Origin: Bacteroidota bacterium | Lineage (GTDB): Bacteria > Bacteroidota > Bacteroidia > B-17B0 > Aurantibacillaceae | Assembly (NCBI GenBank): GCA_030692515.1 | Contig: JAUXZS010000028.1 | Span: forward strand, 186,001-250,000 | DNA length: 64,000 nt | Reading direction: 5' to 3' | In this document: positions 3,996 through 44,945 of the stretch, piece by piece | Position numbering within the stretch: the stretch's first letter is position 1 | Layout: every line of letters starts with the position of its first letter | Program-made: the position numbers and the translations under genes | Notes under the pieces: generated by a model | What the model was told of the DNA's origin: nothing | Databases searched by the model: none | What the model saw: the letters and a program-made list of their open reading frames with translations, nothing else

Positions 3996-6866
3996 TTAAT
4001 TAATTGTTTTTCCATTGCTATCAATCTCAACTACGTCAAAACCAAGTTTTTTCACCTTTTCGAAATTTGATGCCTTATCCCCCACAATTACAATCACCAT
4101 ATTATTATAAGGCAAATATTTTTTTGCCAATGCATTAATTTCAGATGACGTAATTGAATTTAATATTTCGGTTTGTTTAGCAACGTAATCTTTCGATAAA
4201 TCATAGTCTAAAACACGCTTTATAAAATATAGTTTTTGAAAAGGAGACTCGTATTTTAAACCATCGGCTTGAGAAATAGCGTTTTTGGTAAATAACATTT
4301 CATCATCTTTAATACCATTTGCAACATATTCTTTTAATTCTTTAAAAATTTCCACAACAGTGCTATCGGTTGTATTAGCCTTAAATCCTCCACTAATACT
4401 GTAAACTCCTGGATATTTTGTTCCGGAAAATCCACCACGAACACCATAACTCCATCCTTTTATTTCGCGAAGTAAATAATTAATGCGGCTATTAAAAGCG
4501 CCAGCAAAACTAAAATTCATTATAGAGGCTTTATAATAATCGCCTAAAGCATCGTATGGGAGAGCTATATAACCAACACGAATTTCGCTTTGAGCCGCGT
4601 TTTTCTTGTCAACAAAATAAATTTTAGTTTTTTCTATTTTTGGTATTTCGCTAATATTTGCATTAGCAGGATCCCCCGATTTTAACTTAGAAAGAAAAGT
4701 AAGATTTTTTTCAATCTCTTCTTTATTAATATCACCACTAACTGCTACAGAAACCATACTACTATTTAAAGTGTTGTAATAATCTTTTATATCTTCCAAA
4801 GTAATGGAGGATACAGTTTCAGAAGTACCTTTTCCTAAATAACCCAATACATTATCTGGTCCATAAAGAATTTTCTTAAATGCCATTTCTGCCAAAGCGC
4901 CGGCGTTTGATTGTAATTGCATAAGCTGGTCTAGCTGACCTTTTTTCTCTATTTCAAATTCTTCTTTATCAAATTTTGGTTCAAATAAACTTTCCTCAAC
5001 AATTTTAAGTGTGGCTAATAAATTCTTCTTATGAGATTCTATGCTAATAGTTATATCCTCTTGCCCTGAATTAATATCAATAGATGAGCCTAATCTGGCC
5101 AGCTTATTTTCAACCTCTTCAGCACTTGTTTTTAAAGTACTTTGGCCTAATAATTTTGCCATTAACTCTGCTAAACCAGATTTTTCTTTAGGCTCAAATA
5201 GATGACCGGCTTTAAAACTGATTAAAATATTAATTTTTGGAAATTCTTTATCTGTAATTCCAATAACCGGAATTAAATTATTTATTTTAGTTGTATAAAA
5301 ATTTGGAACAGGAACGGGCGCAGCGGCTTTTGCAGTTGGAACAATTGCTCTGTTAAAATTATCTTTAGGTTCAGTAAAAGATAAGTTTTTATACTCTGCA
5401 CTTTCTTGTTCTACAATTCTATCATACATTTTCCAATTATCTGGCTGTGGTCTTAAATCTTCTTTTCCTTTAGGTAAACAACTTAAATATACCGCCGGTT
5501 TGTTTTTAATATAAGTAGTGTAAACACGCATAACATCTGCTTTTGTAACTGCCATAACTTCGGCTATTTCTTTCTTAATATAATTAGCATTACCTGTTAA
5601 TGTATAATAAGATGCTAAGGTTGCACCCTTACCTTGCACAGTGTTTAATCTGTCATATAAACTACTTTCGAATTGCGCTTTATACTTTATTAAATCATCA
5701 TCGGTGGCGCCCTTTTTTTCCCAATTATCTAAAACAGTTTTTAATTCTTTTTCTGTCTCAGCTAAAGAAACATCAGGATTAGTTCTAATAATAAACATAA
5801 ATTGCCCAGCTAACTCTCTAGTAAAATGAAAAGCATTTGCATTTAAGGCTTTTTTGGACTCAATAAATGCTTTATACATTGGCGAACCTTGAGAACCAGA
5901 AAGAATATCTCCAAGAATGTCTAAAGCCGCCTCATCCTTATGATTTGCAGGAACAGTAACATAAGAAATATTCATTTGAGGAAATTTCACATTATCTTCA
6001 TAAGAAACGTAACGACTTGCCTCTAACTTAAATGGCGGAACAATTTGCTTTTTTACTTCTGCCCCTTTTTCAATACTACCAAAATATTTTTGGGCCATTT
6101 GTAAAACTTCATTTGTATTAACATCGCCGGCAACAGTTAATACGGCATTGTTTGGGCCATACCAACGCATATAAAAGCGTTTTAAGTCATTAACATCTAC
6201 TCGATTTAAATCAACCAAATATCCAATAGTTGTCCAGCTATAAGGATGACCTTGAGGATAAAGAGCTTCGCCCATTTTCTCGCTCATTAATCCGTATGGA
6301 GCATTATCATAACGCTGTCCTCTTTCATTCTTTACAGTTGCACGCTGAACTTCAAACTTTTTTTGAGTAACAGAATCCAATAAAAAACCCATTCTATCGG
6401 CTTCTAACCAAAGCATTTTTTCTAACTGATTACTTGGAACAGTTTCAAAATAATTAGTTCTATCAGTATTAGTGCTTCCATTCAAAGTACCTCCAGCTTC
6501 TGTAATAATTTTAAAGTGTTGCTCGTCGGCAACATTTTTTGATCCTTGAAACATCATGTGTTCAAAAAAATGAGCAAAGCCACTTCTTCCTTGTTGCTCA
6601 CGAGCACTACCAACGTGGTAAGTTACATCCACATAACAAATTGGGTCGCTGTGATCTTCATGAATTAAAATAGTAAGTCCGTTAGGAAGTTGGTATTTTT
6701 TATATGTGATAACAATTTCATTCCCAACTTTTTTAACTTCTTCAATAAGAGTTGGAGTAGGAATAGTTGTTTTTGGTGCAGAACTTGCAATTGGAATGTT
6801 TTTTTGAGCATTAACCAAAACCAAACAATTGGTTATTAGGGCGACAGTTATTATTAGTTTTTTCAT
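3996..6866 (-). CDS. Secreted M16 family zinc peptidase, two-domain (pitrilysin/insulinase type)
   Basis: The exported metallopeptidase has about 956 residues and two tandem M16 halves. The inverted zinc motif HFFEH is at residues 99-103 in 'GFAHFFEHMMFQGS', followed by the expected downstream Glu region. The second half lacks the zinc motif but keeps the C-terminal 'R…Y' substrate-binding region ('FNSRINYLLREIKGWSYGVRG'), as in active two-domain members. A signal peptide (MKKLIITVALITNCLVLVNAQ) marks the true start at 6866. The frame is open back to an ATG at 6914, but a good -7 box (TATATTTG on the minus strand) lies between the two ATGs, which rules the upstream one out. It probably degrades peptides in the periplasm. 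Confidence 0.92.
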   Translation of the reverse strand: MKKLIITVALITNCLVLVNAQKNIPIASSAPKTTIPTPTLIEEVKKVGNEIVITYKKYQLPNGLTILIHEDHSDPICYVDVTYHVGSAREQQGRSGFAHFFEHMMFQGSKNVADEQHFKIITEAGGTLNGSTNTDRTNYFETVPSNQLEKMLWLEADRMGFLLDSVTQKKFEVQRATVKNERGQRYDNAPYGLMSEKMGEALYPQGHPYSWTTIGYLVDLNRVDVNDLKRFYMRWYGPNNAVLTVAGDVNTNEVLQMAQKYFGSIEKGAEVKKQIVPPFKLEASRYVSYEDNVKFPQMNISYVTVPANHKDEAALDILGDILSGSQGSPMYKAFIESKKALNANAFHFTRELAGQFMFIIRTNPDVSLAETEKELKTVLDNWEKKGATDDDLIKYKAQFESSLYDRLNTVQGKGATLASYYTLTGNANYIKKEIAEVMAVTKADVMRVYTTYIKNKPAVYLSCLPKGKEDLRPQPDNWKMYDRIVEQESAEYKNLSFTEPKDNFNRAIVPTAKAAAPVPVPNFYTTKINNLIPVIGITDKEFPKINILISFKAGHLFEPKEKSGLAELMAKLLGQSTLKTSAEEVENKLARLGSSIDINSGQEDITISIESHKKNLLATLKIVEESLFEPKFDKEEFEIEKKGQLDQLMQLQSNAGALAEMAFKKILYGPDNVLGYLGKGTSETVSSITLEDIKDYYNTLNSSMVSVAVSGDINKEEIEKNLTFLSKLKSGDPANANISEIPKIEKTKIYFVDKKNAAQSEIRVGYIALPYDALGDYYKASIMNFSFAGAFNSRINYLLREIKGWSYGVRGGFSGTKYPGVYSISGGFKANTTDSTVVEIFKELKEYVANGIKDDEMLFTKNAISQADGLKYESPFQKLYFIKRVLDYDLSKDYVAKQTEILNSITSSEINALAKKYLPYNNMVIVIVGDKASNFEKVKKLGFDVVEIDSNGKTIN

Positions 6867-7486: not shown

Positions 7487-7541
7487 ATTTATTTAGGTTA
7501 CTTTTACTAAAAATTAGAATCAATTAATAAAACAAATAAAA

Positions 7542-8402
7542 ATGAAATTATATAAAATTTTAGTGGCAAGTTTACTACTTACAATTGGGAGTTTAAGTTT
7601 TAATTCTTGCGGTGATAAGGAAAAAGAAGTTAACCCACTAGCGGATAGTTTACTAAGTGTAAATGGTGATTTGAATGGGAAGTTATCAGAGAAAGAGATT
7701 GCAATGCAAGAGTTCATTTCTACTTTTAATGAGATTCAGGAGAATTTAAACACCATAAAAGAAAAAGAAAAAATTGTTACAAAGGCAAGTACTACTGGTG
7801 ATGTAAAAAGTAAAGAAGATCAAATTAAGGAAGATATTCAAGCAATTTATGATTTGATGTCTAAAAACAAAAACCGAATTGGTTCATTAACTTCAAAATT
7901 AAAGAATAGCAATTTAAAGTTAGAAGGTTTAGAGAAAATGATTGAAAATTTGCAAAACAGTCTTAATTTAAAGGATAGCGAAATTTCTGATTTAAAAAAT
8001 CGTATTGAAGGATTAAATATTGAATTATCTAATTTAACAACAAATTATCAAGAAGTAGAAACAGAAAACGCATTAAAAACAGATGAAATAAACACTGCCT
8101 ATTATGCTATAGGAACTTCAAAAGAATTAAAAGAAAAAAATGTAATTTCTAAGGAGGGTGGTTTTATTGGTATAGGAAAAACTACAAAAGTAAAATCTGA
8201 TTTTAATAAGGAATATTTCACTAAGGTAAATATTGAACAAACAAATTCAATTACTATTGGAGCTAAAAAAGCTAAAATTATCACGACTCACCCAAGTAGT
8301 TCTTATAAAATAATTGGAGAAAAACCAGTGGAGAAAATTGAAATAACAAACTCTAAAGAATTTTGGAGTGCTTCAAAATACTTGGTTATAATTATTGAAT
8401 AA
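7542..8402 (+). CDS. Coiled-coil lipoprotein of unknown function
   Basis: The product has 286 residues with a lipoprotein signal peptide (MKLYKILVASLLLTIGSLSFNSC; lipid-attached Cys at 23). Residues about 45-175 form a continuous heptad-like coiled coil rich in Leu, Lys, Glu and Asn (for example 'LEGLEKMIENLQNSLNLKDSE'). The C-terminal 110 residues look globular: 'AYYAIGTSKELKEKNVISKEG', then a Gly-rich 'GFIGIGKTTKVK', then beta-rich sequence ending in 'YLVIIIE'. I recall this C-terminal pattern in uncharacterised Bacteroidota lipoproteins but know no function. It has its own terminator and no operon partner. Confidence 0.85.
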   Translation: MKLYKILVASLLLTIGSLSFNSCGDKEKEVNPLADSLLSVNGDLNGKLSEKEIAMQEFISTFNEIQENLNTIKEKEKIVTKASTTGDVKSKEDQIKEDIQAIYDLMSKNKNRIGSLTSKLKNSNLKLEGLEKMIENLQNSLNLKDSEISDLKNRIEGLNIELSNLTTNYQEVETENALKTDEINTAYYAIGTSKELKEKNVISKEGGFIGIGKTTKVKSDFNKEYFTKVNIEQTNSITIGAKKAKIITTHPSSSYKIIGEKPVEKIEITNSKEFWSASKYLVIIIE

Positions 8403-8416
8403 TTAAGGTTATTAAT

Positions 8417-8454
8417 AAAAAACCCGTACAATTTAGATAGTACGGGTTTTTTTT
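8417..8454. terminator. Bidirectional terminator between convergent genes
   Basis: AAAACCCGTA pairs with TACGGGTTTT around a 12-base loop. A-rich on the left and T-rich on the right, it can end the lipoprotein transcript (+) and the methyltransferase transcript (-). Confidence 0.85.
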
Positions 8455-8508
8455 ATGCTTTTAAATTCCTACTTTTTTACAAAACCAGAGTTAAATAAAA
8501 AGATTAAA

Positions 8509-9474
8509 TTATTTTATCTTTCTGGCTGCAACCATCATTTCTTCTCCAATATTTAAAAAAGAAAGCGTGTTGTATATAAAATTATGAATAAATACAAAAA
8601 GCTTTAATTGCCACATTGGTTTATTGGTAAATTTATTAAAGTATTGCTGGCGTTCCGCAGCATTAATACTCGTATTAGCCTGTGCTCTAGTTTGTTTTTT
8701 TTGGCTTTTAAATTTCTTAATAATAGGTAGTAAAGTGTACATGATAAATAACTTAATTTCGAACGACGATTTTATTTTCACAACCTCGTAACCGTTATTA
8801 GCAAGTATTTTAGTAATTGTGTCCTTACTAAAATAATTCACATGATCGAGCCCCATCATTTTCCAATTATCTTTATGGCGCTTGGCAAAGTAACTATCAA
8901 TTTGTGGAACTTGTAAAAATAAATAACCATCAGGCTTGTTAAGTTTAGCGCACTTTGCAAGAAACTCATCTGCTTTATCAATATGTTCTAAAACGTCCCA
9001 CATGGTTATAACATCAAACTTTTTTGACTCATCCATTTCAAAAAAATCAATATGGTCTACTGGTAGTTTAAGATCATTTACACAATATAAATAAGGTTGT
9101 TCAGAAATTTCAACGCCATAAACATCGTATCCTAACTCTTTACCTGCAAGCATAAAATGTCCCCAACCTGCGCCAAGATCAAATAATTTGCCAGACTTTG
9201 CGAACTTTTGAATGAATTTAAATCTTAGTTTATGCCGTTGAACTTTTATCCAATTATTACCGGCTCTAACAGCTGCAGTTACATCTGCATTTTTATATTG
9301 TGTGTATTCAATTTTTTTTCGGTAATACGGAGGGATAAAATGAAAAGAACAATTATTACAAGTAACAACTGCGAAGTTTTCTTTTTGATATTTTAATTGA
9401 AATTTAGTTTTATCATTATTTCCACAGACGCAACAATGTATATCTTCGGCCATAAAGGCTGGTAAAATTGCCAT
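8509..9474 (-). CDS. Class I SAM-dependent methyltransferase with N-terminal Cys4 motif
   Basis: The product has 321 residues. The N-terminus carries CCVC…CNNC (residues about 13-42), a likely small zinc-binding ribbon. It is followed by a Methyltransf_23 (UbiG-like) domain: SAM motif I 'LFDLGAGWGHF' near 95, the acidic residue of motif II in 'VYGVEIS', and motif IV/post-I 'FDVITMWDVLEHI' near 155. Bacteroidota proteins of this layout often act on sugars or lipids, but the substrate here is unknown. It starts 6 nt after the stop of the upstream repeat protein and is probably co-transcribed with it. A second in-frame ATG at 9453 would still keep the Cys motif. Confidence 0.85.
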   Translation of the reverse strand: MAILPAFMAEDIHCCVCGNNDKTKFQLKYQKENFAVVTCNNCSFHFIPPYYRKKIEYTQYKNADVTAAVRAGNNWIKVQRHKLRFKFIQKFAKSGKLFDLGAGWGHFMLAGKELGYDVYGVEISEQPYLYCVNDLKLPVDHIDFFEMDESKKFDVITMWDVLEHIDKADEFLAKCAKLNKPDGYLFLQVPQIDSYFAKRHKDNWKMMGLDHVNYFSKDTITKILANNGYEVVKIKSSFEIKLFIMYTLLPIIKKFKSQKKQTRAQANTSINAAERQQYFNKFTNKPMWQLKLFVFIHNFIYNTLSFLNIGEEMMVAARKIK

Positions 9475-37154: not shown

Positions 37155-37556
37155 TTAAATAATATTTTCAACTTCTAATAACTTCCTGAATTCAACTGGA
37201 TTTATAGGTTTATCCATAAGAGTTAAAATTCTGGGATTTTCTTTTGCCCGCATTTCATCTCCATCAAATAAGGAAGAAGAAACCATAATAATTTTACATT
37301 TTTCTTTTAAAGATATAGGTAGTAATTCAAATTCATTAACAAAATCAAATCCAGTCATGCTAGGCATATGAATATCAGTTAATATTAAATCGGGCCAATT
37401 TAACTCGCCATTTTCTTGAAGATATTTTAATGCTTCGGTTGCTAAAGAAAATTCTAAAATAGAGTTAGCTATATTCATTTGGTTAATAAACTGGCTATGA
37501 ATAAATAAATCTATTTTATTATCATCAATGAGCATTATTTTAATTTTCTTATTCAC
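37155..37556 (-). CDS. Single-domain response regulator (REC), last gene of the signalling cluster
   Basis: 133 residues, REC fold only. Acidic pair D11/D12 ('MLIDDNKIDLF'), phospho-acceptor D61 ('DLILTDIHMPSMTGFDF'), a Ser in the T/S switch position ('IIMVSSSLF') and the conserved Lys in 'LTLMDKPINPVEF'. All residues for phosphorylation are intact, and there is no output domain. It overlaps the upstream REC-histidine kinase hybrid by 8 nt, so it is probably phosphorylated by that kinase or by the 7TMR kinase of the same operon. It may act by protein contact or as a phosphate shuttle. Confidence 0.9.
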   Translation of the reverse strand: MNKKIKIMLIDDNKIDLFIHSQFINQMNIANSILEFSLATEALKYLQENGELNWPDLILTDIHMPSMTGFDFVNEFELLPISLKEKCKIIMVSSSLFDGDEMRAKENPRILTLMDKPINPVEFRKLLEVENII

Positions 37557-38649
37557 TTACCACAAATTTATTTGGAATTAATAATTCAAATGTAGTGCCA
37601 ATTAAAAGTGACGATGAAACCTTTATATTACCCCCCATTTTTTCAACAGATTCTTTTACCATATATAAACCAATTCCAGTTCCTTCAATATTTAGAGAAT
37701 TTTCTGTTCTAAAAAAAAGTTGAAAAATATTCTCCAAATGTTTTTTATCAATCCCGATGCCATTATCTTCTATCAAAATATGTAGATTATCTTTATCAGC
37801 TTTGACACTTAATTTTATTTGCTGATTTCCGACCGAAGGATTTTGATATTTGATAGCGTTAGAAATTAAGTTTTTGAAAACAACCGCAAGTCTATGTTTA
37901 TCGCCAAAAAATTCTTTTTCTTGATTTACAATTAATTCAAAATTAATTAATTTACTAGGGTCTTTTAGAGAGTCCCATATTTCTAAAATAAAAGATTGTA
38001 AATCAATTCTAGAAGTAGCTACCTCTAACCTTGCATTTTTATGATAGTCGATAATATTTTTGATGAATGTATCTAACTTAATTACTCTTCCTTCAATCAT
38101 ATCAAAATAACTATCTGCCACTCTTAATTCCGGCATTAATTTTGTGACATTTATTACTCCTAATATTGAGGTTAAGGGAGAACGTAAATCATGAGAGACG
38201 CTATAAACAAATTTATTTAGTTCTTCGTTAGCTTTAGTTAACTCGCCATTTTTTAATTTAATTTCTAATCGTGAATTATAAATTGTAACACAATGATCAA
38301 TAGCAATTGATAGTTTATCCCAATCCCATGGTTTTTGAATAAATTTACTTATTTGCCCTCGGTTAATTGCATCAATAACAACATTAATATCAGAATAACC
38401 TGTAATTAATAGGCGTACGCTATCGGGATATAAGTCTTTGACTTTTTCGAGAAATTCAACGCCGCTTATATCGGGCATTCTTTCATCGGATATGATAATA
38501 AAAATCGGAAAAATTTCTAAGATGGAAAATGCTACTTCGGCACTTATTGCAGTGTGAACTTCATAGTCTTTTCTGAAATGTGACCGGAACGCGACAAGGT
38601 TATTTTCCTCATCATCAACGTAAAGTATTTTTATTTTTTCAGTTATCAT
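37549..38649 (-). CDS. REC-histidine kinase hybrid protein
   Basis: 366 residues. The N-terminal REC domain (about 5-122) has phospho-acceptor D55 ('IIIISDERMPDISG') and 'KFIQKPWDWDKL'. A short coiled coil (about 123-145) leads to HisKA (H153 in 'FVYSVSHDLRSPLTSILG') and a HATPase_c domain (N box 'FKNLISNAIKYQN', G1 'IEDNGIGI', 'TGIGLYMVKESVEKMGG'). There is no membrane segment, so it is a cytoplasmic phosphorelay intermediate. The REC domain is closely similar to the stand-alone REC at 44034 ('YVDDEENNL', 'GYSD', 'QKPW'), which suggests duplication. It is joined to the sensor kinase upstream by a TAATG overlap and to the next REC by an 8-nt overlap. Confidence 0.93.
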   Translation of the reverse strand: MITEKIKILYVDDEENNLVAFRSHFRKDYEVHTAISAEVAFSILEIFPIFIIISDERMPDISGVEFLEKVKDLYPDSVRLLITGYSDINVVIDAINRGQISKFIQKPWDWDKLSIAIDHCVTIYNSRLEIKLKNGELTKANEELNKFVYSVSHDLRSPLTSILGVINVTKLMPELRVADSYFDMIEGRVIKLDTFIKNIIDYHKNARLEVATSRIDLQSFILEIWDSLKDPSKLINFELIVNQEKEFFGDKHRLAVVFKNLISNAIKYQNPSVGNQQIKLSVKADKDNLHILIEDNGIGIDKKHLENIFQLFFRTENSLNIEGTGIGLYMVKESVEKMGGNIKVSSSLLIGTTFELLIPNKFVVSE

Positions 38650-40787
38650 TAGCTTCTATTGGCTGCAATCTTAGCGTTCAAAATTACTAAAATTTTTGTA
38701 CCTACTCCATGTTCCGATTCAACTTCTATTTTTGCACCGTGACTCTCTATTATCTTAAAAACAATAGACATGCCTAAACCAGTACCTTCACCAACACCTT
38801 TAGTCGTAAAAAAAGGTTCAAACAACTTGTTTTTAACCTCTTCTGTCATACCAATACCTGTATCTTCGATTAAAACAAAAACTTGACTATTGGAAGAATA
38901 ACTTGATATAATTAATTTACCTCCACTATTATTCTTTTTACTATTGATTGCAAATATGGCATTGCTCAGCAAATTCATAAAAACTTGATTTAACTTCCCC
39001 GGTAAACATTCTATTAAAGGAATTTCTCCTAAGTTAACAATAACTTCTGTATGGTTTTGAACTGAACTATTTAATAATAAAAGGGTGGATTGAATTCCTT
39101 CGTTAATATTTACTTCTTTTATTTCCGTTTCATCTAACCTAGAAAAATTCTTTAAACCATAAACTATTTCTGCGGTTCGCCTAGCACCATCATCAATTCC
39201 GTTAAGAAGTAATTGCATTTCTTTTTTAATGTATTCAAAGTCAATTTTCTGTTTAAACTCATCAATCTTTTTTAATTCATTAATAGTTGTGTCATTTTTA
39301 GGAATAGTCTCATACTTTTTAACTAACTCCAATACATCATCAATATCCATTTTTAATGGCTTAATATTTGCGCTTACAAAATTAATGGGGTTATTAATTT
39401 CATGAGCAATTCCTGCCGTAAGTTGCCCAAGAGAAGCCATTTTTTCTGCACTAACTAATTGCGCTTGAGTATCTTTTAAACTAGAAAGTGTTTTTTTTAA
39501 TTCGAGAGTTCGCTCTTCAACATTTTTTTCTAGTTGTATATTTTGTTCGGTAATTAATTTTTCATTTTCTTTTAGCGCTTCCAATGTTAAAGCTTGAGAC
39601 ATTTCTTTTTCTTTTTTAAGAATATTAATCCTATCTGCAAGCGCAAATGATAATAAAACAGTTTCTATTGCTGACCCAATTTGCATAGTATAACGCGTAA
39701 AGTTATTGAAGGGTAAAATTTCTAAATCCTTAAGAACATAAATGCAAACTCCAATTAAAAAAACCGACCAAGCTAATAAGAAAAATTTGGCTGGTTTAAA
39801 ACCCCTCCTTAAAATTATTATAGGTGTGACTAACATGTAAACAGAAACAATCATAGCATTGATTTCCATGCTAACTTGACTTGCTTTGAAATAGTTAAGT
39901 AAAAAAAGGACTATTGAAAGTAAATATGGCAAAATTAAACCTAACCCAATAAAATGTAATGTTTTGCTAAAATATTTCAAATGAAGAAAACTATTCATAA
40001 ACAACATTGCCGAAATCCCAACTAAGGAAGGTAGTGTAAATAAACTTGTTTGAGCCAAAACTGGTGAATTAGGCCAGAGAAATTGAAAAGTATATCCTTG
40101 AAGTGATGTTTGCGTAAGTAGAATTAAAAGCACATAACTTACATAATACAAATAACTATTATCTTTTATTGAAAAGTAAATAAATAAATTATAAAAAATA
40201 ATCACCAGCATGATTCCAAAATAAATTCCTGATAAAATTCCTTTGTTTTTTATTTGCCCTAAAATCGTACCTTCGGTTCCAATCTTAATTGGAAGTTGAA
40301 TTCCTTCTTTACTAGCAATTTTGAAATAAACAACTTTTGATTCGCCGGGAGAAATAATCAAATCAAAAATATAATCAGGATCGTCATATATTCTATTATT
40401 AAATGGAAGATGCTCTCCCATTTCATTGACTAAATATTTATTGTTTTTATCTAGATAATAGAATTCAATAAAATCAATTGTTGGCACCGAGAGATTAATT
40501 AAAAAATGATTTTGGTTGGACATATTTTTAATTGGAATCTTTACCCAAAAAACAGATTTTGAAATTCCAAGATTTGCCACTTTTTTATTAGTCCGAATAA
40601 ATTGTTTATCAATAATCAGCTCTAACGGAAGTTCTGCTGTTGCATCTTCATAAATATGAATAGAAGAGCTAACGTCTATTAATCGGGTACTATTTCTTAA
40701 TATAATTGTATCACTGGCAAAAGATGAACTTATAACAATTAAAATTAGAGTTAAAAGGACATAATATTTCGTGTAATTACTGTTCAT
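38649..40787 (-). CDS. 7TMR-DISM sensor histidine kinase
   Basis: 712 residues. Signal peptide (about 1-25), then an extracytoplasmic 7TMR-DISM extracellular-2 jelly-roll domain (about 40-165, 'SVFWVKIPIKNMSNQNHFLINLSVPTIDFIEFYYL'), seven membrane helices (about 183-385), a coiled coil (about 388-450), and a HisKA/HATPase pair: phospho-acceptor H462 in 'LGQLTAGIAHEINNPINFVSANI', N box 'FMNLLSNAIFAIN', G1 'IEDTGIGM', and 'GEGTGLGMSIVFKIIESHGA'. The DISM domain in such receptors is thought to bind small extracellular ligands, often carbohydrate-like. It lies 9 nt from the GNAT gene and overlaps the next kinase by TAATG. The co-encoded enzymes may make its ligand, which is inference. Confidence 0.93.
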   Translation of the reverse strand: MNSNYTKYYVLLTLILIVISSSFASDTIILRNSTRLIDVSSSIHIYEDATAELPLELIIDKQFIRTNKKVANLGISKSVFWVKIPIKNMSNQNHFLINLSVPTIDFIEFYYLDKNNKYLVNEMGEHLPFNNRIYDDPDYIFDLIISPGESKVVYFKIASKEGIQLPIKIGTEGTILGQIKNKGILSGIYFGIMLVIIFYNLFIYFSIKDNSYLYYVSYVLLILLTQTSLQGYTFQFLWPNSPVLAQTSLFTLPSLVGISAMLFMNSFLHLKYFSKTLHFIGLGLILPYLLSIVLFLLNYFKASQVSMEINAMIVSVYMLVTPIIILRRGFKPAKFFLLAWSVFLIGVCIYVLKDLEILPFNNFTRYTMQIGSAIETVLLSFALADRINILKKEKEMSQALTLEALKENEKLITEQNIQLEKNVEERTLELKKTLSSLKDTQAQLVSAEKMASLGQLTAGIAHEINNPINFVSANIKPLKMDIDDVLELVKKYETIPKNDTTINELKKIDEFKQKIDFEYIKKEMQLLLNGIDDGARRTAEIVYGLKNFSRLDETEIKEVNINEGIQSTLLLLNSSVQNHTEVIVNLGEIPLIECLPGKLNQVFMNLLSNAIFAINSKKNNSGGKLIISSYSSNSQVFVLIEDTGIGMTEEVKNKLFEPFFTTKGVGEGTGLGMSIVFKIIESHGAKIEVESEHGVGTKILVILNAKIAANRS

Positions 40788-40796
40788 TTACAATTA

Positions 40797-41558
40797 TTAA
40801 ATTATTTTTTTTTGACCGCTATTAACGCCGTAATGATTAATGGAAATATTTTTATAAAGCAAATTGTAGCTGATTTCAGAAATGAAGTTGTTATTCTTTT
40901 CCGTCCTTTTCATTACCGGACGTTCCCTTAATGAAGTCATAATTTCTTTATCAAAACTTGAGGCTGTTTCTAAGGTAATTGCATTTAATATGCCAATAAC
41001 ATGTGCTGTTAAATCATCGGTAGGATAAGGGAATCCACCGTTTTTACCCAAAGAATGATCAATTACAAAACCTGCATTATTAAACATAGATAGTGTGTTA
41101 ATTCCACAAATTCCAAACAAAGTAACTAAATGAAGTTGATTTAACGAAGCAATTGACGCCCGAACAAGAATTGGTCCCATTCCAACTCCCCTTAGTTTAT
41201 TTGCCACCCAGAAACCGCATAATTCAGCGGCACCACCGTTAAAGGCATGATCTTTAACTATGTCATATATTCGATTATCCATAAAACCAACAGCAACCTC
41301 CACCGGCAAAGGTAAAGTACCATCTGCAATTTGAATTCTAATACCACCTAACAACTCTTTAGTAACTGAGTCTTCTACTACAACACAATACATGTTTTGG
41401 TTGGTAGTCCATAAATTATTATTTGAAGTAATACTGGTAATTCCATAATCGGCAAGCACTTTAACGTGCCCCTTAATGTATTCTTTACATATTTCATTTT
41501 CATCGATAGCACGAAAAGCCCAAACATTAAAGCGATTATGTATTTCGGTATTACTCAT
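40797..41558 (-). CDS. GNAT-fold acyltransferase-like protein
   Basis: 253 residues. The central part fits a GNAT/acyl-transferase fold: strand 'LLGGIRIQIAD' near 69-79, then 'AELCGFWVANKLRGVGMGPILVRASIASL' (111-139). In the latter, RGVGMG (123-128) occupies the acyl-CoA pyrophosphate loop (Q/RxxGxG/A), and 'NTLSMFNNAGFVID' further on is a typical GNAT C-terminal segment. The arrangement of a basic/acidic strand followed by the P-loop resembles autoinducer synthases and other amino-acid N-acyltransferases, but I cannot assign a substrate. It overlaps the upstream ThiF-nitroreductase gene by 8 nt, so the two enzymes are probably made together and act in one pathway. Confidence 0.72.
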   Translation of the reverse strand: MSNTEIHNRFNVWAFRAIDENEICKEYIKGHVKVLADYGITSITSNNNLWTTNQNMYCVVVEDSVTKELLGGIRIQIADGTLPLPVEVAVGFMDNRIYDIVKDHAFNGGAAELCGFWVANKLRGVGMGPILVRASIASLNQLHLVTLFGICGINTLSMFNNAGFVIDHSLGKNGGFPYPTDDLTAHVIGILNAITLETASSFDKEIMTSLRERPVMKRTEKNNNFISEISYNLLYKNISINHYGVNSGQKKII

Positions 41559-43875
41559 TTATCAAAACATCATCAATTTTTCGTCTTAATGATTTTTTTT
41601 CAGGTAAATTGGCAATACACAATCTAAACAAAAAAACATCGCATCTGTGAGATTCAGTATTCATTATTTTTAAAAATTGATTCCTTAACAAATTAAGCTC
41701 ATTTTTACAATCTTCATCAATGCCAACTCCATTACCTTTTATTAATCGTGCAAATAAAAAGGTTGCAGGAGATTGTGGCTGAAATGAAATGTTTAATTTA
41801 TTTGCAGCTAACCATGTTCTTTGAACAGATCTACCGCCATTAAAATAAGAAATAGGCGAATATTCGGGCATTGTTATTAAACACATAGCTGAAGAGCTTA
41901 AAACTGTTTTTTTAGCTAGTTTTTCGAATGCAGTACCTTTTCTCCACTTTTTTAATAGTTTAATTACATTCCAATTTTTGGCTACAATTAACCCAGCTTT
42001 TTCTGCTGCAGTAATATCAACGGTTTTTAAATCAACCCCATCCCTTTTTAACTCATGCTCCTCATCCGTCCATCTAATTTCCTTTACAAAATCAGAATGT
42101 CCTCTTTGGTTCATCATTCTTAATCTCTCAACATTTGAAATAACATGAGCCAGCTTCTCAATATCAGCAATAGAGTCTATAACCTTCATTTGAGCGCCAT
42201 CAATTGAAGATGCTACTTGTTGTAACTGTAATAGTAAATCAGGATTAATTAATTGCCTATCTGAAATGGTTCTATTTGTTAATCTAGCGTCAATTTCTTC
42301 TACTAAATAATTATATTCTTTTTGATTAGAATTAGATTGCTCTTTTGTAAAAACAAATTGACAAACAACTCTTAAATCTGTTTTTAAAGGAAAAGGAATA
42401 CTATTTGGATTCAACCCAATTTGATTGGCTTTTAAAATTAAATTTTCAGTAGCAGCGCCAAAACTTATATACGACGCTAAATTATCAAAATCTAAAAGAG
42501 AGTACGACCTATTTACATCATGAAATAAAAATAAATTTCCTTTAGAATAATACCAGGTCCATGCTTGCGCATTACCTCCAGATGGTGCCTTAATTGCCGC
42601 TTCAACTAAGGTATTTATTTGTTGATGTGTTGGTGTTATTAGTGTTTCATTTATCTCGATAATTAGTTTACCGGCAATTGTTTGCATTTCGTTTTGCGAA
42701 AGCGACGCTTTAAAATTTTCATTGTTTGAAATTTCCAATAGTTCGTTTTCCTCATTTTTTTTATTTCCAATTAATTCTTCTATATCTACATGATATCTTC
42801 CAGATTCGGTAAATTGATTTAATAATAACCTTCGACTAACGTCTGTTGCAATGCCACCACCCATAGTTACAGCTGAAGCTAATTGAGGCCATGTATTTAT
42901 AGTCTGTTCAATTTCAAGCATAGAAGCTTTTAATCGCAACGAAGAAGTTTCAATCCCTAACATATCTAACATGTATGGAATTTTTTCTTCGGTTGTTTTA
43001 AGTTTTTTTAAAGTTTCAATATCCAAATGGTCCACTAATCCATGTAAAATACTGCGCTTGGGCTCCAAATCAAAGCGCTCAACATCTACGGTACATCTAT
43101 CACTTGCTTCCATTACTACCGGAATTTTTAATTCGCGTGCTTTATAGCGACTGAGTATTTTTATATCAAATCCATCCGACTCTTCTATCAATAAATCTAA
43201 CTTTCCCCCACCTAAAAAAAATTCATCCATATTAGAATCAATTAATCCTTGAGGAAAACAAATTACTTTTAAGAATGGGTCAATTTCAGCAATTTCTCTT
43301 GCAACCGAATAAACTTTTGCTAAGCCTAAATTATGAACACCGGTTCTTATTCTATTTAAATTAGTTAATTCAAGCAAATCAAAATCGGCTAATCTAATTT
43401 CTCCGCAAACTCTTTCCATTGCAAGTGTAACAGAAACAGATTGACCAACTGACAATCCAATAATTCCAATTTTTTTTTGTTCTAAAATTGCACGTTCTTC
43501 TCTGGTAATTTTATTTTGATTTCTACTTGTTCGAACATTCACAAACTCTTCTTCATCTAAAATGTGAACAAGCCGGTTTGACCATGGATAATACACCCAA
43601 ACTCCATATTCTTCGATAGGAATTAAGCCAATTTGTTTTTTTACGGCTTCAGAAAGATTAGCTGCAGAAAATTTTATTGATGGATTTTTAACTTTTACGA
43701 GTTCCTCAATTTGATTATATATTTGGTCGAATACTTTAACATCACTGTTTGCTTCTAGCAACACATCTAATTTTTGTTTGTCGCTATTATTCGATAATCG
43801 AAAAAATTGGGGTAAAAAAATAGTATCCAATGCTTTATTCCGATGATTTATAGTATCAAGTTTTGTTTTCATCAT
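41551..43875 (-). CDS. ThiF/E1-like adenylyltransferase fused to nitroreductase-like domain (Rv1355c/MoeY type)
   Basis: 774 residues. After a helical N-terminal region (about 1-125), an E1-like Rossmann domain (about 126-365) carries the nucleotide loop 'IGIIGLSVGQSVSVTLAM' (135-152), 'LADFDLLELTNLNRIRTGV' (162-180, the Asp and N-x-N-R that hold ATP-Mg) and 'EESDGFDIKILSRYKARELKIPVVM'. A CxxC zinc site is absent. The second half (about 405-774) is nitroreductase-like, with the FMN-binding 'AAIKAPSGGNAQAWTWYY' (426-443) and 'ATFLFARLIKGNG' near 710. The layout matches the Rv1355c family, named MoeY in Mycobacterium, whose function is not established. It heads the signalling cluster and overlaps the GNAT gene. 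Confidence 0.87.
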   Translation of the reverse strand: MMKTKLDTINHRNKALDTIFLPQFFRLSNNSDKQKLDVLLEANSDVKVFDQIYNQIEELVKVKNPSIKFSAANLSEAVKKQIGLIPIEEYGVWVYYPWSNRLVHILDEEEFVNVRTSRNQNKITREERAILEQKKIGIIGLSVGQSVSVTLAMERVCGEIRLADFDLLELTNLNRIRTGVHNLGLAKVYSVAREIAEIDPFLKVICFPQGLIDSNMDEFFLGGGKLDLLIEESDGFDIKILSRYKARELKIPVVMEASDRCTVDVERFDLEPKRSILHGLVDHLDIETLKKLKTTEEKIPYMLDMLGIETSSLRLKASMLEIEQTINTWPQLASAVTMGGGIATDVSRRLLLNQFTESGRYHVDIEELIGNKKNEENELLEISNNENFKASLSQNEMQTIAGKLIIEINETLITPTHQQINTLVEAAIKAPSGGNAQAWTWYYSKGNLFLFHDVNRSYSLLDFDNLASYISFGAATENLILKANQIGLNPNSIPFPLKTDLRVVCQFVFTKEQSNSNQKEYNYLVEEIDARLTNRTISDRQLINPDLLLQLQQVASSIDGAQMKVIDSIADIEKLAHVISNVERLRMMNQRGHSDFVKEIRWTDEEHELKRDGVDLKTVDITAAEKAGLIVAKNWNVIKLLKKWRKGTAFEKLAKKTVLSSSAMCLITMPEYSPISYFNGGRSVQRTWLAANKLNISFQPQSPATFLFARLIKGNGVGIDEDCKNELNLLRNQFLKIMNTESHRCDVFLFRLCIANLPEKKSLRRKIDDVLINE

Positions 43876-44033
43876 TTATTTTAAAAATTACCTAAGTGTG
43901 TTTACGCATTCCAATAAATTAAAATTTAAAAATAAAGTTTATTTACAAAGTAGTCTATTTTATTTTTAAAAACGAAAAAAAAATTATATATTTAATCTAA
44001 TAAAACCTATTATATAAATTTTAATTTCGTTTA

Positions 44034-44501
44034 ATGAAAGAGGATGTTGTAATTAATGTTTTGTATGTTGATGATGAAGAAAATAATTTAATTGCCTTTA
44101 AAGCGGCTTTCAGACGTTATTTTACCATCTACACAGCGCTATCCGCCGATATTGCGCAAAATATCTTAAGTCAAAACAACATACATGTTCTTATCACAGA
44201 TCAAAGAATGCCAGGAACTTTGGGCACTGAATTATTGGCACAAGCAGCAATAGATTATCCTGACCAAACTCGCCTTTTGTTAACCGGTTATTCAGATATT
44301 GAAGCATTAAAAGATGCAGTGAATAGAGGTCATATTTTTCGTTATTTACAAAAACCTTGGAATGATGAGGAATTAAAAAAAACAATCGAAGATTCATTCC
44401 AAATTTATTTCATTAAAAAAGAACAAAAGGAACAAAATGAAAAATTAGTTTTAACCAATGAGCAATTAGAATTTATGCTAAGACAAAAATTGATATCCTA
44501 A
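44034..44501 (+). CDS. Single-domain response regulator, divergent from the cluster
   Basis: 155 residues. REC domain with 'VLYVDDEENNLIAFKAAFRRYF', phospho-acceptor D56 ('HVLITDQRMPGTLGTELL') and 'FRYLQKPWNDEELKKTI', then a short coiled tail ending 'NEQLEFMLRQKLIS'. The REC part is strikingly like the REC domain of the hybrid kinase at 37549-38649 and stops where that protein continues into its HisKA domain. It is a natural fifth signalling partner for the cluster, 158 nt upstream in the opposite direction, so both transcripts start in the same gap. Confidence 0.9.
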   Translation: MKEDVVINVLYVDDEENNLIAFKAAFRRYFTIYTALSADIAQNILSQNNIHVLITDQRMPGTLGTELLAQAAIDYPDQTRLLLTGYSDIEALKDAVNRGHIFRYLQKPWNDEELKKTIEDSFQIYFIKKEQKEQNEKLVLTNEQLEFMLRQKLIS

Positions 44502-44549: not shown

Positions 44550-44945
44550 TTATTTTTTATTTTTAAGCTCAAGCAGCCATTTATGCGCTTCCTCTTTACT
44601 AGTAAAAAATTTTTGCGGAAATTCTTTTTTACTAAGTTTTTGTAAGTATTTTAAAACAGTAGCTTTAAGTTTATTTGAAACAACAATTGCTCTTGCGGCT
44701 GTATAAATCTTTGAGTTTTCCATTTCTACTCTTGCCTTAGCTTTTTCATTTAAATCCCAATCTGCATTTGCCTCTAATAATTTATAAGCAGGTTTTTGGT
44801 TAGCTTTAAAACGAATTACAAAATTAGCATCAATCACATCATACTCATCAATTAAACCGCAATTTTTCATTGTGATAATTATTATCCCGTGTTCATCAAG
44901 GAAAATTGTTGAAGTTCTAGTTTCTATTGGATTATCATCACTCAT
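44550..44945 (-). CDS. STAS/SpoIIAA-like fold protein (DUF7793-like)
   Basis: 131 residues with no signal peptide. The 'ARAIVVSNKLKATVLKYLQKLSKKEFPQKFFTSKEEAHKWL' C-terminal half (about 84-125) matches small Bacteroidota STAS-like proteins of unknown function, with a helix over a sheet and the closing 'F.SKEEA..WL' typical of the group. The first half has 'IFLDEHGIIIITMKNCGLIDEYDVIDAN'. It lies 22 nt downstream of porD on the same strand and could be the last gene of that transcript. Confidence 0.7.
   Translation of the reverse strand: MSDDNPIETRTSTIFLDEHGIIIITMKNCGLIDEYDVIDANFVIRFKANQKPAYKLLEANADWDLNEKAKARVEMENSKIYTAARAIVVSNKLKATVLKYLQKLSKKEFPQKFFTSKEEAHKWLLELKNKK

Follow-up and report, generated by a model that had tools for sequence, protein, structure and literature searches.

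The window, the 64,000-nt stretch of Bacteroidota DNA analysed here, contains a compact six-gene locus in which two biosynthetic enzymes adjoin two histidine kinases and two receiver proteins. Its features are:

41551-43875, minus strand: ThiF-type adenylating cyclase fused to an FMN-dependent oxidase/nitroreductase (TrzS/OxzB-like), 774 aa (NF005901, PF00899, PF00881)
40797-41558, minus strand: GNAT-fold protein, predicted N-acyl amino acid synthase (FeeM/OxzA/TrzA-like), 253 aa (AlphaFold2 model, fold match)
38649-40787, minus strand: 7TMR-DISM sensor histidine kinase (DISMED2, 7TM, HisKA/HATPase), 712 aa, predicted product receptor (PF07695, PF07696, PF02518)
37549-38649, minus strand: REC-HisKA-HATPase relay kinase, 366 aa (PF00072, PF00512, PF02518)
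37155-37556, minus strand: stand-alone receiver, 133 aa, GTG start (PF00072)
44034-44501, plus strand: divergent receiver protein, 155 aa (PF00072)
43876-44033: divergent intergenic region of 158 nt between the fusion gene and the 155-aa receiver gene (from ORF coordinates)

The fusion and GNAT genes overlap by 8 nt (41551/41558), the GNAT and sensor kinase genes are 9 nt apart (40788-40796), the two kinase genes meet in a TAATG junction at 38649, and the relay kinase and 133-aa receiver genes again overlap by 8 nt (37549/37556). Coordinates and junctions of all six genes matched an earlier, sequence-only reading when the ORFs were checked. The arrangement is far beyond chance, because it recurs throughout the phylum (see below). 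Annotation of the six ORFs with Pfam and NCBIfam profiles detected neither an exporter nor a DNA-binding output domain in any of the six proteins.

By profile match the fusion is a member of the Rv1355c/TrzS family. It scores 782.3 bits against NF005901 ('Rv1355c family'; cut-off 476) and covers positions 6-718 of the 722 in the profile, which bears out the proposed Rv1355c layout of an E1-like adenylyltransferase joined to a nitroreductase; the nitroreductase domain itself (PF00881) is barely over its cut-off (23.6 vs 23.5 bits). When the PDB was searched with the ThiF profile, the nearest entry was TcdA, an enzyme that closes N-carbamoyl-threonine into a ring. In alignments the fusion shares 39-70% identity with three relatives from Bacteroidota and 31-32% with two actinobacterial Rv1355c-family proteins, with which it has invariant residues in common. 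Window residues D234 and R584 are invariant and equate to D199 and R522 in the homologue encoded on an M. dioxanotrophicus plasmid. The latter pair differs by a constant offset of 18 from D217 and R540, residues of published importance in M. smegmatis TrzS, a likeness that is suggestive as a comparison of numbering only. The mapping did not place TrzS Q651. Oxazolones are labile towards acid and alcohols (PMC12856293). According to two papers (PMC12856293, PMC10404671), ThiF-nitroreductase fusions working with an N-acyltransferase yield N-acyl oxazolones, and the biosynthetic half of the locus therefore has a precedent. Relatives of the fusion in genome contigs were located by an alignment scan; a protein-only scan with the fusion gave no match. 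At one locus (L041) ThiF, FDO and GNAT are joined in a single gene, and at another (L109) the fusion is present with neither GNAT nor kinase within the extent of its contig.

The GNAT protein matches PF00583 (Acetyltransf_1) weakly, with 15.5 bits against a cut-off of 20.7, and a profile search of PDB sequences gave no significant match for it. Its AlphaFold2 model (pLDDT 89) has chains of FeeM (PDB 2g0b) at Foldseek ranks 1-4 (E 7e-8). FeeM, which comes from uncultured soil microbes and has no adjacent kinase known to us, is also VIA rank 1 (Z 17.0, rmsd 2.7 over 179 residues), where ranks 1-7 lie within 1 Z and are therefore tied, AHL synthases and plain GNATs being among them. It is the nearest solved fold, yet only 11-14% identical to the window protein. 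Since FeeM is the top structural match and the AHL synthases BjaI and LasI are among the next, the model supports the suggestion that the protein has a LuxI-like fold and makes an acylated molecule. Membership of the LuxI family itself was rejected, as no match to the Pfam family of LuxI AHL synthases (PF00765) appeared up to E 0.1 and Acetyltransf_1 alone was reported; the likeness is one of fold only. Similarity to the protein adjoining an Rv1355c-family gene on a Rhodococcus plasmid is remote. The window protein has the 'RGVGMG' acyl-CoA loop, which the family as a whole does not conserve: most of 20 aligned relatives have other sequences at this point (e.g. AGxGLS, AGYGIG). On the basis of its modelled fold, the protein is predicted to join an acyl group to an amino acid.

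The sensor kinase is assigned to the 7TMR-DISM group by PF07695 (179 bits, cut-off 29) and PF07696 (100 bits, cut-off 22). Its HATPase_c domain (PF02518) is over the cut-off, and HisKA, at 25.0 bits, is slightly below the cut-off of 26.9. In model comparisons the periplasmic domain has a fold like that of RetS, and the 7TM part gave only Wntless and GPCR matches of poor rmsd. A relay kinase, by the same criteria, is found in 46 of 75 class-sample loci, and the 133-aa receiver is kept in some relatives. The REC domain of the 155-aa receiver, which is of the same type as that of the relay kinase, carries no known output domain; short homologues of this receiver occur in 66 of the 75 loci, a figure that rises to 70 when longer proteins carrying this REC are added.

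The coupling of GNAT and sensor kinase is very strong. In a phylum sample (395 genomes of Bacteroidota), the identical 13 genomes carried both the GNAT gene and a particular 7TMR-DISM sensor subclass, and the remaining 382 had no sensor match of at least 354 bits among the best four candidates scored per genome. In a class sample (395 genomes) the kinase adjoins the GNAT gene on the same strand at 74 of 76 loci, one of the misses being at a contig end, and in an order sample it does so at 22 of 22; both counts include the window locus. The question of whether the enzyme pair usually occurs without the kinases was thus answered in favour of coupling inside Bacteroidota, and synthase and candidate receptor are genetically linked as in quorum-sensing systems. 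One class-sample genome (G625, L301) has GNAT and ThiF but no kinase, and at five loci outside the phylum (L132, L163-L166; plasmid gene tables incomplete) no such kinase adjoins the fusion or ThiF gene.

Synthase and receptor are the constant part of the cassette, and the tailoring enzyme varies, being a ThiF-nitroreductase, ThiF alone, or one of three kinds of methyltransferase. It has been exchanged at least five times with synthase and kinase kept (seven including two 'none' tips), and the signal chemistry of the cassette would accordingly be interchangeable. Replacement of the oxazolone-forming enzyme by ThiF alone or by methyltransferases suggests a general rule: an N-acyl amino acid synthase, a capping enzyme and a dedicated 7TMR-DISM kinase. 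Five independent tailoring-swap pairs were compared with 33 same-chemistry pairs. The residual of 7TM divergence was positive in all five swap pairs (mean z 1.56), as was that of GNAT (5/5, mean z 0.97), and that of the extracellular domain in four of five (mean 0.78). Because the GNAT and extracellular-domain residuals are positive as well as that of the 7TM part, a tie between sensor divergence and tailoring swaps is only suggestive. In the strongest pair (L265/L284), the kinase half is 88%, GNAT 75% and the sensor 44% identical.

Seven syntenic loci of the window's genus fall into three types in which sensor and GNAT co-segregate, and neither the kinase half nor the 155-aa receiver goes with these types (partial Mantel 0.87 for GNAT-7TM, p 0.0024, against -0.04 for receiver-7TM). 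A similar gap between sensor and kinase is seen in one ordinary family of short kinases of the same genus. The GNAT-7TM correlation has the same sign for 12 Pedobacter loci (0.85, p 0.0001) and for 14 loci of genus g188 (0.47, p 0.0001); several tests were made, and partial Mantel p-values tend to run low. Related species thus carry, at a single locus, deep sensor and GNAT types beside a conserved kinase half. Co-segregation was present in three of five groups and absent in two, namely Mucilaginibacter (7 loci), where GNAT instead tracks the kinase half (0.86), and a group of five loci from Daejeonella and a relative. Co-segregation tracks the physical adjacency of the genes: at 22 loci with the order GNAT-ThiF-kinase, it is ThiF that follows the sensor (0.41), and GNAT barely does (0.16, p 0.065), so that linkage in a recombining block may suffice. 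Across the whole set (3655 pairs), partial correlations of GNAT were 0.39 with the kinase half, 0.32 with the 7TM part and 0.18 with the extracellular domain, and once the signal of the kinase itself is allowed for, no phylum-wide GNAT-sensor co-segregation is seen. The order test, the two negative groups and the phylum-wide correlation with the kinase half weaken the case that co-divergence proves cognate pairing.

Taken together, the locus is probably a self-contained synthesis-and-sensing cassette: its enzymes would make an N-acyl amino acid with a capped carboxyl group, and the 7TMR-DISM kinase dedicated to this molecule would be its sensor. Judging from fold and homology, the GNAT protein would acylate an amino acid, probably an aromatic one. 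By analogy with its homologues, the ThiF domain would use ATP to adenylate the carboxylate of this N-acyl amino acid, giving a five-membered oxazolone, and the FMN domain would then desaturate the ring. We infer that the receptor senses the enzyme product, which, being neutral and membrane-permeable, would leave the cell and bind the DISM/7TM part of the adjacent kinase. The domains suggest that phosphate would pass to the receiver proteins, directly or via the REC-HK, and that these act on partners encoded elsewhere.

A less likely, but serious, alternative is that the kinase responds to stress, envelope or redox, and controls the enzymes encoded beside it. Their product would then be a protective lipid, pigment or antibiotic never bound by the kinase. 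Pathway-specific two-component systems often adjoin biosynthetic genes, the receivers have no output domain, and phylum-wide GNAT correlates as strongly with the kinase half as with the sensor; the available discussion in PMC12856293 also ties oxazolones to stress physiology. Against this reading, the kinase is kept where unrelated methyltransferases replace the tailoring enzyme, and the sensor subclass was not found, at the 354-bit threshold and among the best four candidates of each genome, in the 382 genomes where GNAT was not found. Extreme divergence of sensor and GNAT beside a conserved kinase half would not be expected of a plain stress sensor.

It is improbable that the capped N-acyl amino acids are toxic to, or interfere with, related strains, the kinase detecting self and foreign product and triggering tolerance, with deep types persisting by frequency-dependent selection. 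The three deep sensor/GNAT types at one locus in related species would fit, as would the antimicrobial N-acyl tyrosine derivatives of Stieleria mentioned in the available text of PMC12856293, but no extra recurring gene was recognised beside the cassette genes in an unsystematic view of the flanking ORFs, among which an immunity gene may yet occur. Antagonism and signalling are not separable by sequence. That a housekeeping modification pathway merely lies next to an unrelated two-component system is hardly credible: the kinase is missing from G625 and from the five loci outside the phylum, but a chance arrangement is already contradicted by the co-occurrence in 13 identical genomes and the same-strand adjacency at 74 of 76 loci, and flanking ORFs vary among many loci.

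The synthesis-and-sensing layout has counterparts in LuxM/LuxN, CqsA/CqsS and PhcB/PhcS-type systems, where a synthase gene has a phosphorelay and a membrane sensor kinase of the multi-pass kind as neighbours; their synthases and sensor domains are unrelated to those of the window, for which the signal is a predicted one. The product of PhcB is a methyl ester, and may be comparable to that of the methyltransferase variants. In agr and ComQXP, the synthesis genes and the sensor half are hypervariable, and the kinase half and response regulator of the same locus are conserved. The sensor/kinase-half pattern is the same here, but those signals are peptides rather than the predicted small N-acyl amino acid derivatives, and linkage is a possible cause in the present case. 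The same enzyme pair, a ThiF-FDO fusion and an N-acyltransferase gene, is known from TrzAS (Mycobacterium/Rhodococcus) and OxzAB (Pseudoalteromonas rubra) (PMC12856293, PMC10404671). TrzS is of the same NCBIfam family as the window fusion, and the ThiF and FDO residues are conserved with actinobacterial homologues. Unlike in the window, neither receivers nor a 7TMR-DISM kinase of their own is described for these systems, and the words 'kinase' and 'receptor' are absent from the text of PMC12856293, where oxazolone signalling is proposed from structural analogy and c-di-GMP neighbours. The sequence-only reading, largely right, had missed this N-acyl oxazolone pathway: what it took for an undescribed circuit has a known chemistry (PMC12856293, PMC10404671), and the kinase coupling is the part for which no precedent was found in the literature searched.

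There is, in our view, an even chance that an intercellular signalling class not yet described is widespread in Bacteroidota, with LuxI/FeeM-fold synthases, carboxyl-capped N-acyl amino acids, dedicated 7TMR-DISM kinases and exchangeable specificity types ('dialects' among close relatives), the cap being an oxazolone ring (made by ThiF, alone or joined to the flavin domain) or a methyl ester (three methyltransferase families). What oxazolones do in bacterial physiology is, in the words of PMC12856293, 'a major unresolved question', and a receptor kinase tied to the synthase phylum-wide makes this role directly testable in the cultured genera Pedobacter, Mucilaginibacter and Daejeonella, where Pedobacter nyackensis (L111) and Daejeonella lutea (L075) are among the carriers. 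If the proposal is true, Bacteroidota would gain a signalling class of their own. It would also supply a ligand class for 7TMR-DISM receptors, which to our knowledge are largely orphan, and the natural swaps of signal chemistry would be usable for studies of receptor specificity.

The six open reading frames of the cassette (37155–44501; genome G000, contig C58, 4.33 Mb, with relatives that are Bacteroidota by organism name) were recomputed, and their overlaps and 158-nt divergent gap match the sequence-only reading exactly. The domain make-up proposed there was borne out by Pfam and NCBIfam: ThiF and nitroreductase domains in the fusion, a weakly matching GNAT, 7TMR-DISMED2, 7TM and histidine kinase domains in the sensor, a receiver and histidine kinase in the relay kinase, and two receivers. 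The six-gene arrangement is confirmed, and the H-box and receiver aspartates are legible in the translated proteins. As Pfam found no DNA-binding or other known output domain in any cassette protein of the window, the output presumably acts elsewhere. Just past the divergent receiver, a gene of opposite orientation (44550–44945, minus) encodes a DUF7793 protein (41 bits, cut-off 26), no homologue of which was seen in 20 relative loci (L007, L034–L052).

These 20 loci derive from strong matches to either the fusion or its ThiF portion, which occur in 12 of 61 genomes of the window's family (window genome counted) and 10 of 395 phylum genomes. GNAT and DISM kinase adjoin in all 20, counting L041, in which the GNAT is fused. 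Searching the 395 phylum genomes with the sensor alone gave matches in 57 (at most four candidates scored per genome), and with the GNAT alone in 13 (at most seven scored). The 13 top sensor-scoring genomes (354–528 bits; next 341) are exactly the 13 GNAT genomes, the line at 354 bits having been set post hoc, after the scores were known. Among 20 neighbourhoods of sensor matches outside the ThiF set, a GNAT adjoins all three at ≥354 bits, one of which (L167) also shows the end of a ThiF gene where the contig breaks off; the remaining 17 have no GNAT next door.

The expectation that the enzymes would stand beside such a kinase holds inside Bacteroidota. GNAT was found in 76 of 395 class genomes, and all 76 neighbourhoods were examined; at 74 a DISM kinase shares the GNAT's strand, no more than 60 nt away or separated from it by a single tailoring gene (for the enzyme paired with the GNAT). 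At one of the two misses (L286) the contig ends at the GNAT. The other, L301 (G625, 7504–9359), is the sole real exception in the class sample: its GNAT is divergent (E 4e-19 against the family by hhalign) and stands beside a ThiF-only gene, without a kinase. The order sample has the GNAT in 22 of 87 genomes and the kinase in all 22. With the ThiF alignment as query, a scan of contigs confirmed at least 571 relatives, those listed including Pedobacter, Mucilaginibacter, Daejeonella, Parapedobacter, Cryomorpha, Arachidicoccus and many MAGs. At the best 80 named loci of these, the kinase is present in 73; five of the seven misses are contig ends, and L109 and L132 are true absences within the reach of their contigs. 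L132, on a contig labelled Blastocatellia, has a different GNAT, without a kinase. A contig labelled Azovibrio (Proteobacteria; L071) bears a complete Bacteroidota-type cassette, and the label is probably a binning error.

Some cassettes vary in their receivers. Two adjacent copies of the 155-aa receiver (44034–44501, plus strand, in the window) occur in six Pedobacter cassettes (L078, L090, L095, L096, L099 and L110; L078 shares its genome with L245) and in L278. Four loci of family f9 (L044, L045, L046, L050) have a 520–573-aa receiver-containing gene close to the cassette (about 4400–6450), which might be PorX-like; genes further upstream are possibly lpx genes.

The 774-aa fusion belongs to the NCBIfam Rv1355c family (782 bits, cut-off 476). 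In a 2025 paper Rv1355c goes by the name TrzS; together with the N-acyltransferase TrzA it converts acyl-CoA and tryptophan to N-acyl tryptazolones, with ATP-dependent ring closure by the ThiF domain and O2-dependent desaturation by the flavin domain (PMC12856293). OxzAB and TyzACB (PMC10404671) and Planctomycetes N-acyl tyrosine clusters (PMC12479983) are related. The fusion aligns over nearly its full length with two actinobacterial plasmid homologues (31–32% identity), with common invariant residues in both domains, and the ThiF profile matches TcdA best in the PDB (E 6e-10); the matches next in rank are also E1-like, UBA5, MoeB and ThiF among them. The predicted biosynthetic chemistry of the cassette is already known in other phyla.

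The GNAT protein (253 aa), modelled from a 21-sequence alignment (pLDDT 89), had been likened to LuxI-type synthases, which is partly upheld: the AHL synthases BjaI and LasI are near, but rank after FeeM, an N-acyl amino acid synthase and the nearest solved structure (Foldseek E 7e-8, VIA Z 17.0; plain GNATs almost equal in VIA), and Pfam gives no match to the LuxI family. In L041 (G049, contig C9, 4025–7045) a single 1006-aa ThiF-FDO-GNAT gene, FDO being the flavin domain, is a natural fusion joining all enzymatic steps, with a DISM kinase gene directly after. L035 (G048, contig C55, 11026–12476) has tandem GNAT genes in one cassette (sharing 31% and 43% identity with the window GNAT), possibly representing two signals or an ongoing type switch.

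The gene tables of four actinobacterial plasmids, which are incomplete, list no such kinase next to the enzyme genes; on the Streptomyces plasmid a sensor–regulator pair lies some 5 kb off. The GNAT adjoining the Streptomyces ThiF has no detectable relation to that of the cassette. A 252-aa protein adjoining the Rv1355c-family gene of a Rhodococcus plasmid is, judging by profile alignment, apparently a distant homologue (hhalign E 8e-5, 174 columns, probability 61%). On the Rhodococcus qingshengii plasmid (L164, 4826–8974) a GGDEF gene, a remote GNAT homologue (opposite strand) and the Rv1355c-family gene stand in a row. This GGDEF gene, two genes away on one of the four plasmids, recalls the c-di-GMP genes that PMC12856293 describes as adjoining trzAS, and in actinobacteria the system may be linked to c-di-GMP.

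Occupants of the tailoring slot in the class sample (76 loci)
ThiF-FDO: 42/76 (window counted)
ThiF without flavin domain: 21/76
Class I SAM methyltransferase, about 255 aa: 7/76
O-methyltransferase, PF00891 type: 1/76
ICMT-type membrane methyltransferase: 1/76 (L168 of the phylum sample has another)
FDO part only: 2/76
No tailoring enzyme: 2/76 (L286, contig end; L280)

Pfam identified four of the seven class I methyltransferases, the PF00891 enzyme and both ICMT-type enzymes; a profile built on this kind of class I enzyme picked out the remaining three. In a tree of 91 concatenated GNAT and kinase alignments, made by a quick method, the tailoring type changes seven times, including the two tips without an enzyme (one a contig end), leaving at least five exchanges among ThiF and methyltransferases, and 10 changes are required to account for where the flavin domain was gained or lost. 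Exchange is seen inside single families (f3, f60, f61, f85). Ring closure by ThiF and the putative carboxyl methylation would both leave an N-acyl amino acid without its negative charge; we infer this to be their shared purpose.

In the window's genus, seven loci occupy one syntenic place with five flanking genes in common. They form three types in the GNAT (71–92% identity within, 51–58% between) and 7TM region (71–86% and 42–46%), of which the kinase half (64–91%) and 155-aa receiver (69–95%) are independent. Partial Mantel correlations, conditioned on flanks and kinase, were 0.87 for GNAT and 7TM (p 0.0024), 0.84 for GNAT and extracellular domain (p 0.0004), 0.64 for FDO and 7TM (p 0.0044), 0.33 for ThiF and 7TM (p 0.079) and -0.04 for receiver and 7TM (p 0.58). 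L035 and L307 group together in the GNAT, extracellular and 7TM trees (100/99) but not in the flank tree, whose branches there have only 76–77/88 support. In another genus, L044 and L045 share 60–96% identity in the flanks, 87% in the receiver, 81% in the kinase half and 80% in the relay kinase, with 61% in the fusion, 46% in the GNAT and 35% in the sensor. Given the kinase, the correlation recurs in Pedobacter (12 loci, 0.85, p 0.0001) and genus g188 (14 loci, 0.47, p 0.0001), and is not significant in Mucilaginibacter (7 loci, 0.08) or Daejeonella and a relative (5 loci, 0.02); in Mucilaginibacter it is the kinase half that the GNAT follows (0.86, p 0.0006). In the structural model of the sensor (pLDDT 86), the periplasmic domain resembles RetS (Foldseek E 2e-6) and the 7TM-region helices come after it.

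Such co-segregating types resemble the specificity groups of the agr and ComQXP systems. Counting against this reading, the GNAT over the whole set (3655 pairs) correlates with the kinase half (partial correlation 0.39) no less than with 7TM (0.32) or the extracellular domain (0.18). Gene order also counts against it: at 22 loci ordered GNAT-ThiF-kinase, GNAT and sensor give 0.16 (p 0.065) and the adjoining ThiF and sensor 0.41 (p 0.0005), while at 119 loci ordered ThiF-GNAT-kinase, GNAT and sensor give 0.59 (p 0.002), with GNAT and kinase half given 7TM still at 0.35. The pattern thus tracks adjacency, and co-segregation may reflect a linked recombination block. N-terminal and kinase identities between sensor types (40–47/63–80%; within, 63–78/73–91%) differ by a large margin, but not a unique one, since control kinases of the genus give 52–69/60–70% in two families and 47–68/82–93% in one short family.

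The sequence-only claim of an undescribed circuit does not extend to the chemistry, but stands for its coupling to a receptor kinase, which is undescribed in the mostly open-access literature searched by title and abstract opening. The words kinase and receptor are absent from the text of PMC12856293, as are DISM and oxazol- from the passages searched of a review of two-component quorum sensing (PMC8895600). To our knowledge, both the phylum-wide, nearly exceptionless tie to a single subclass of receptor kinase and the exchange of tailoring enzymes at a constant synthase-receptor core are new. The main rival, that the kinase regulates enzymes making a non-signal product, is considered rather unlikely. 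Phylum-wide coupling together with tailoring exchange at a fixed core makes a dedicated signalling system the best explanation, and a reasonably probable one: a capped N-acyl amino acid would be made by the cassette enzymes and sensed by the cassette's own 7TMR-DISM kinase.
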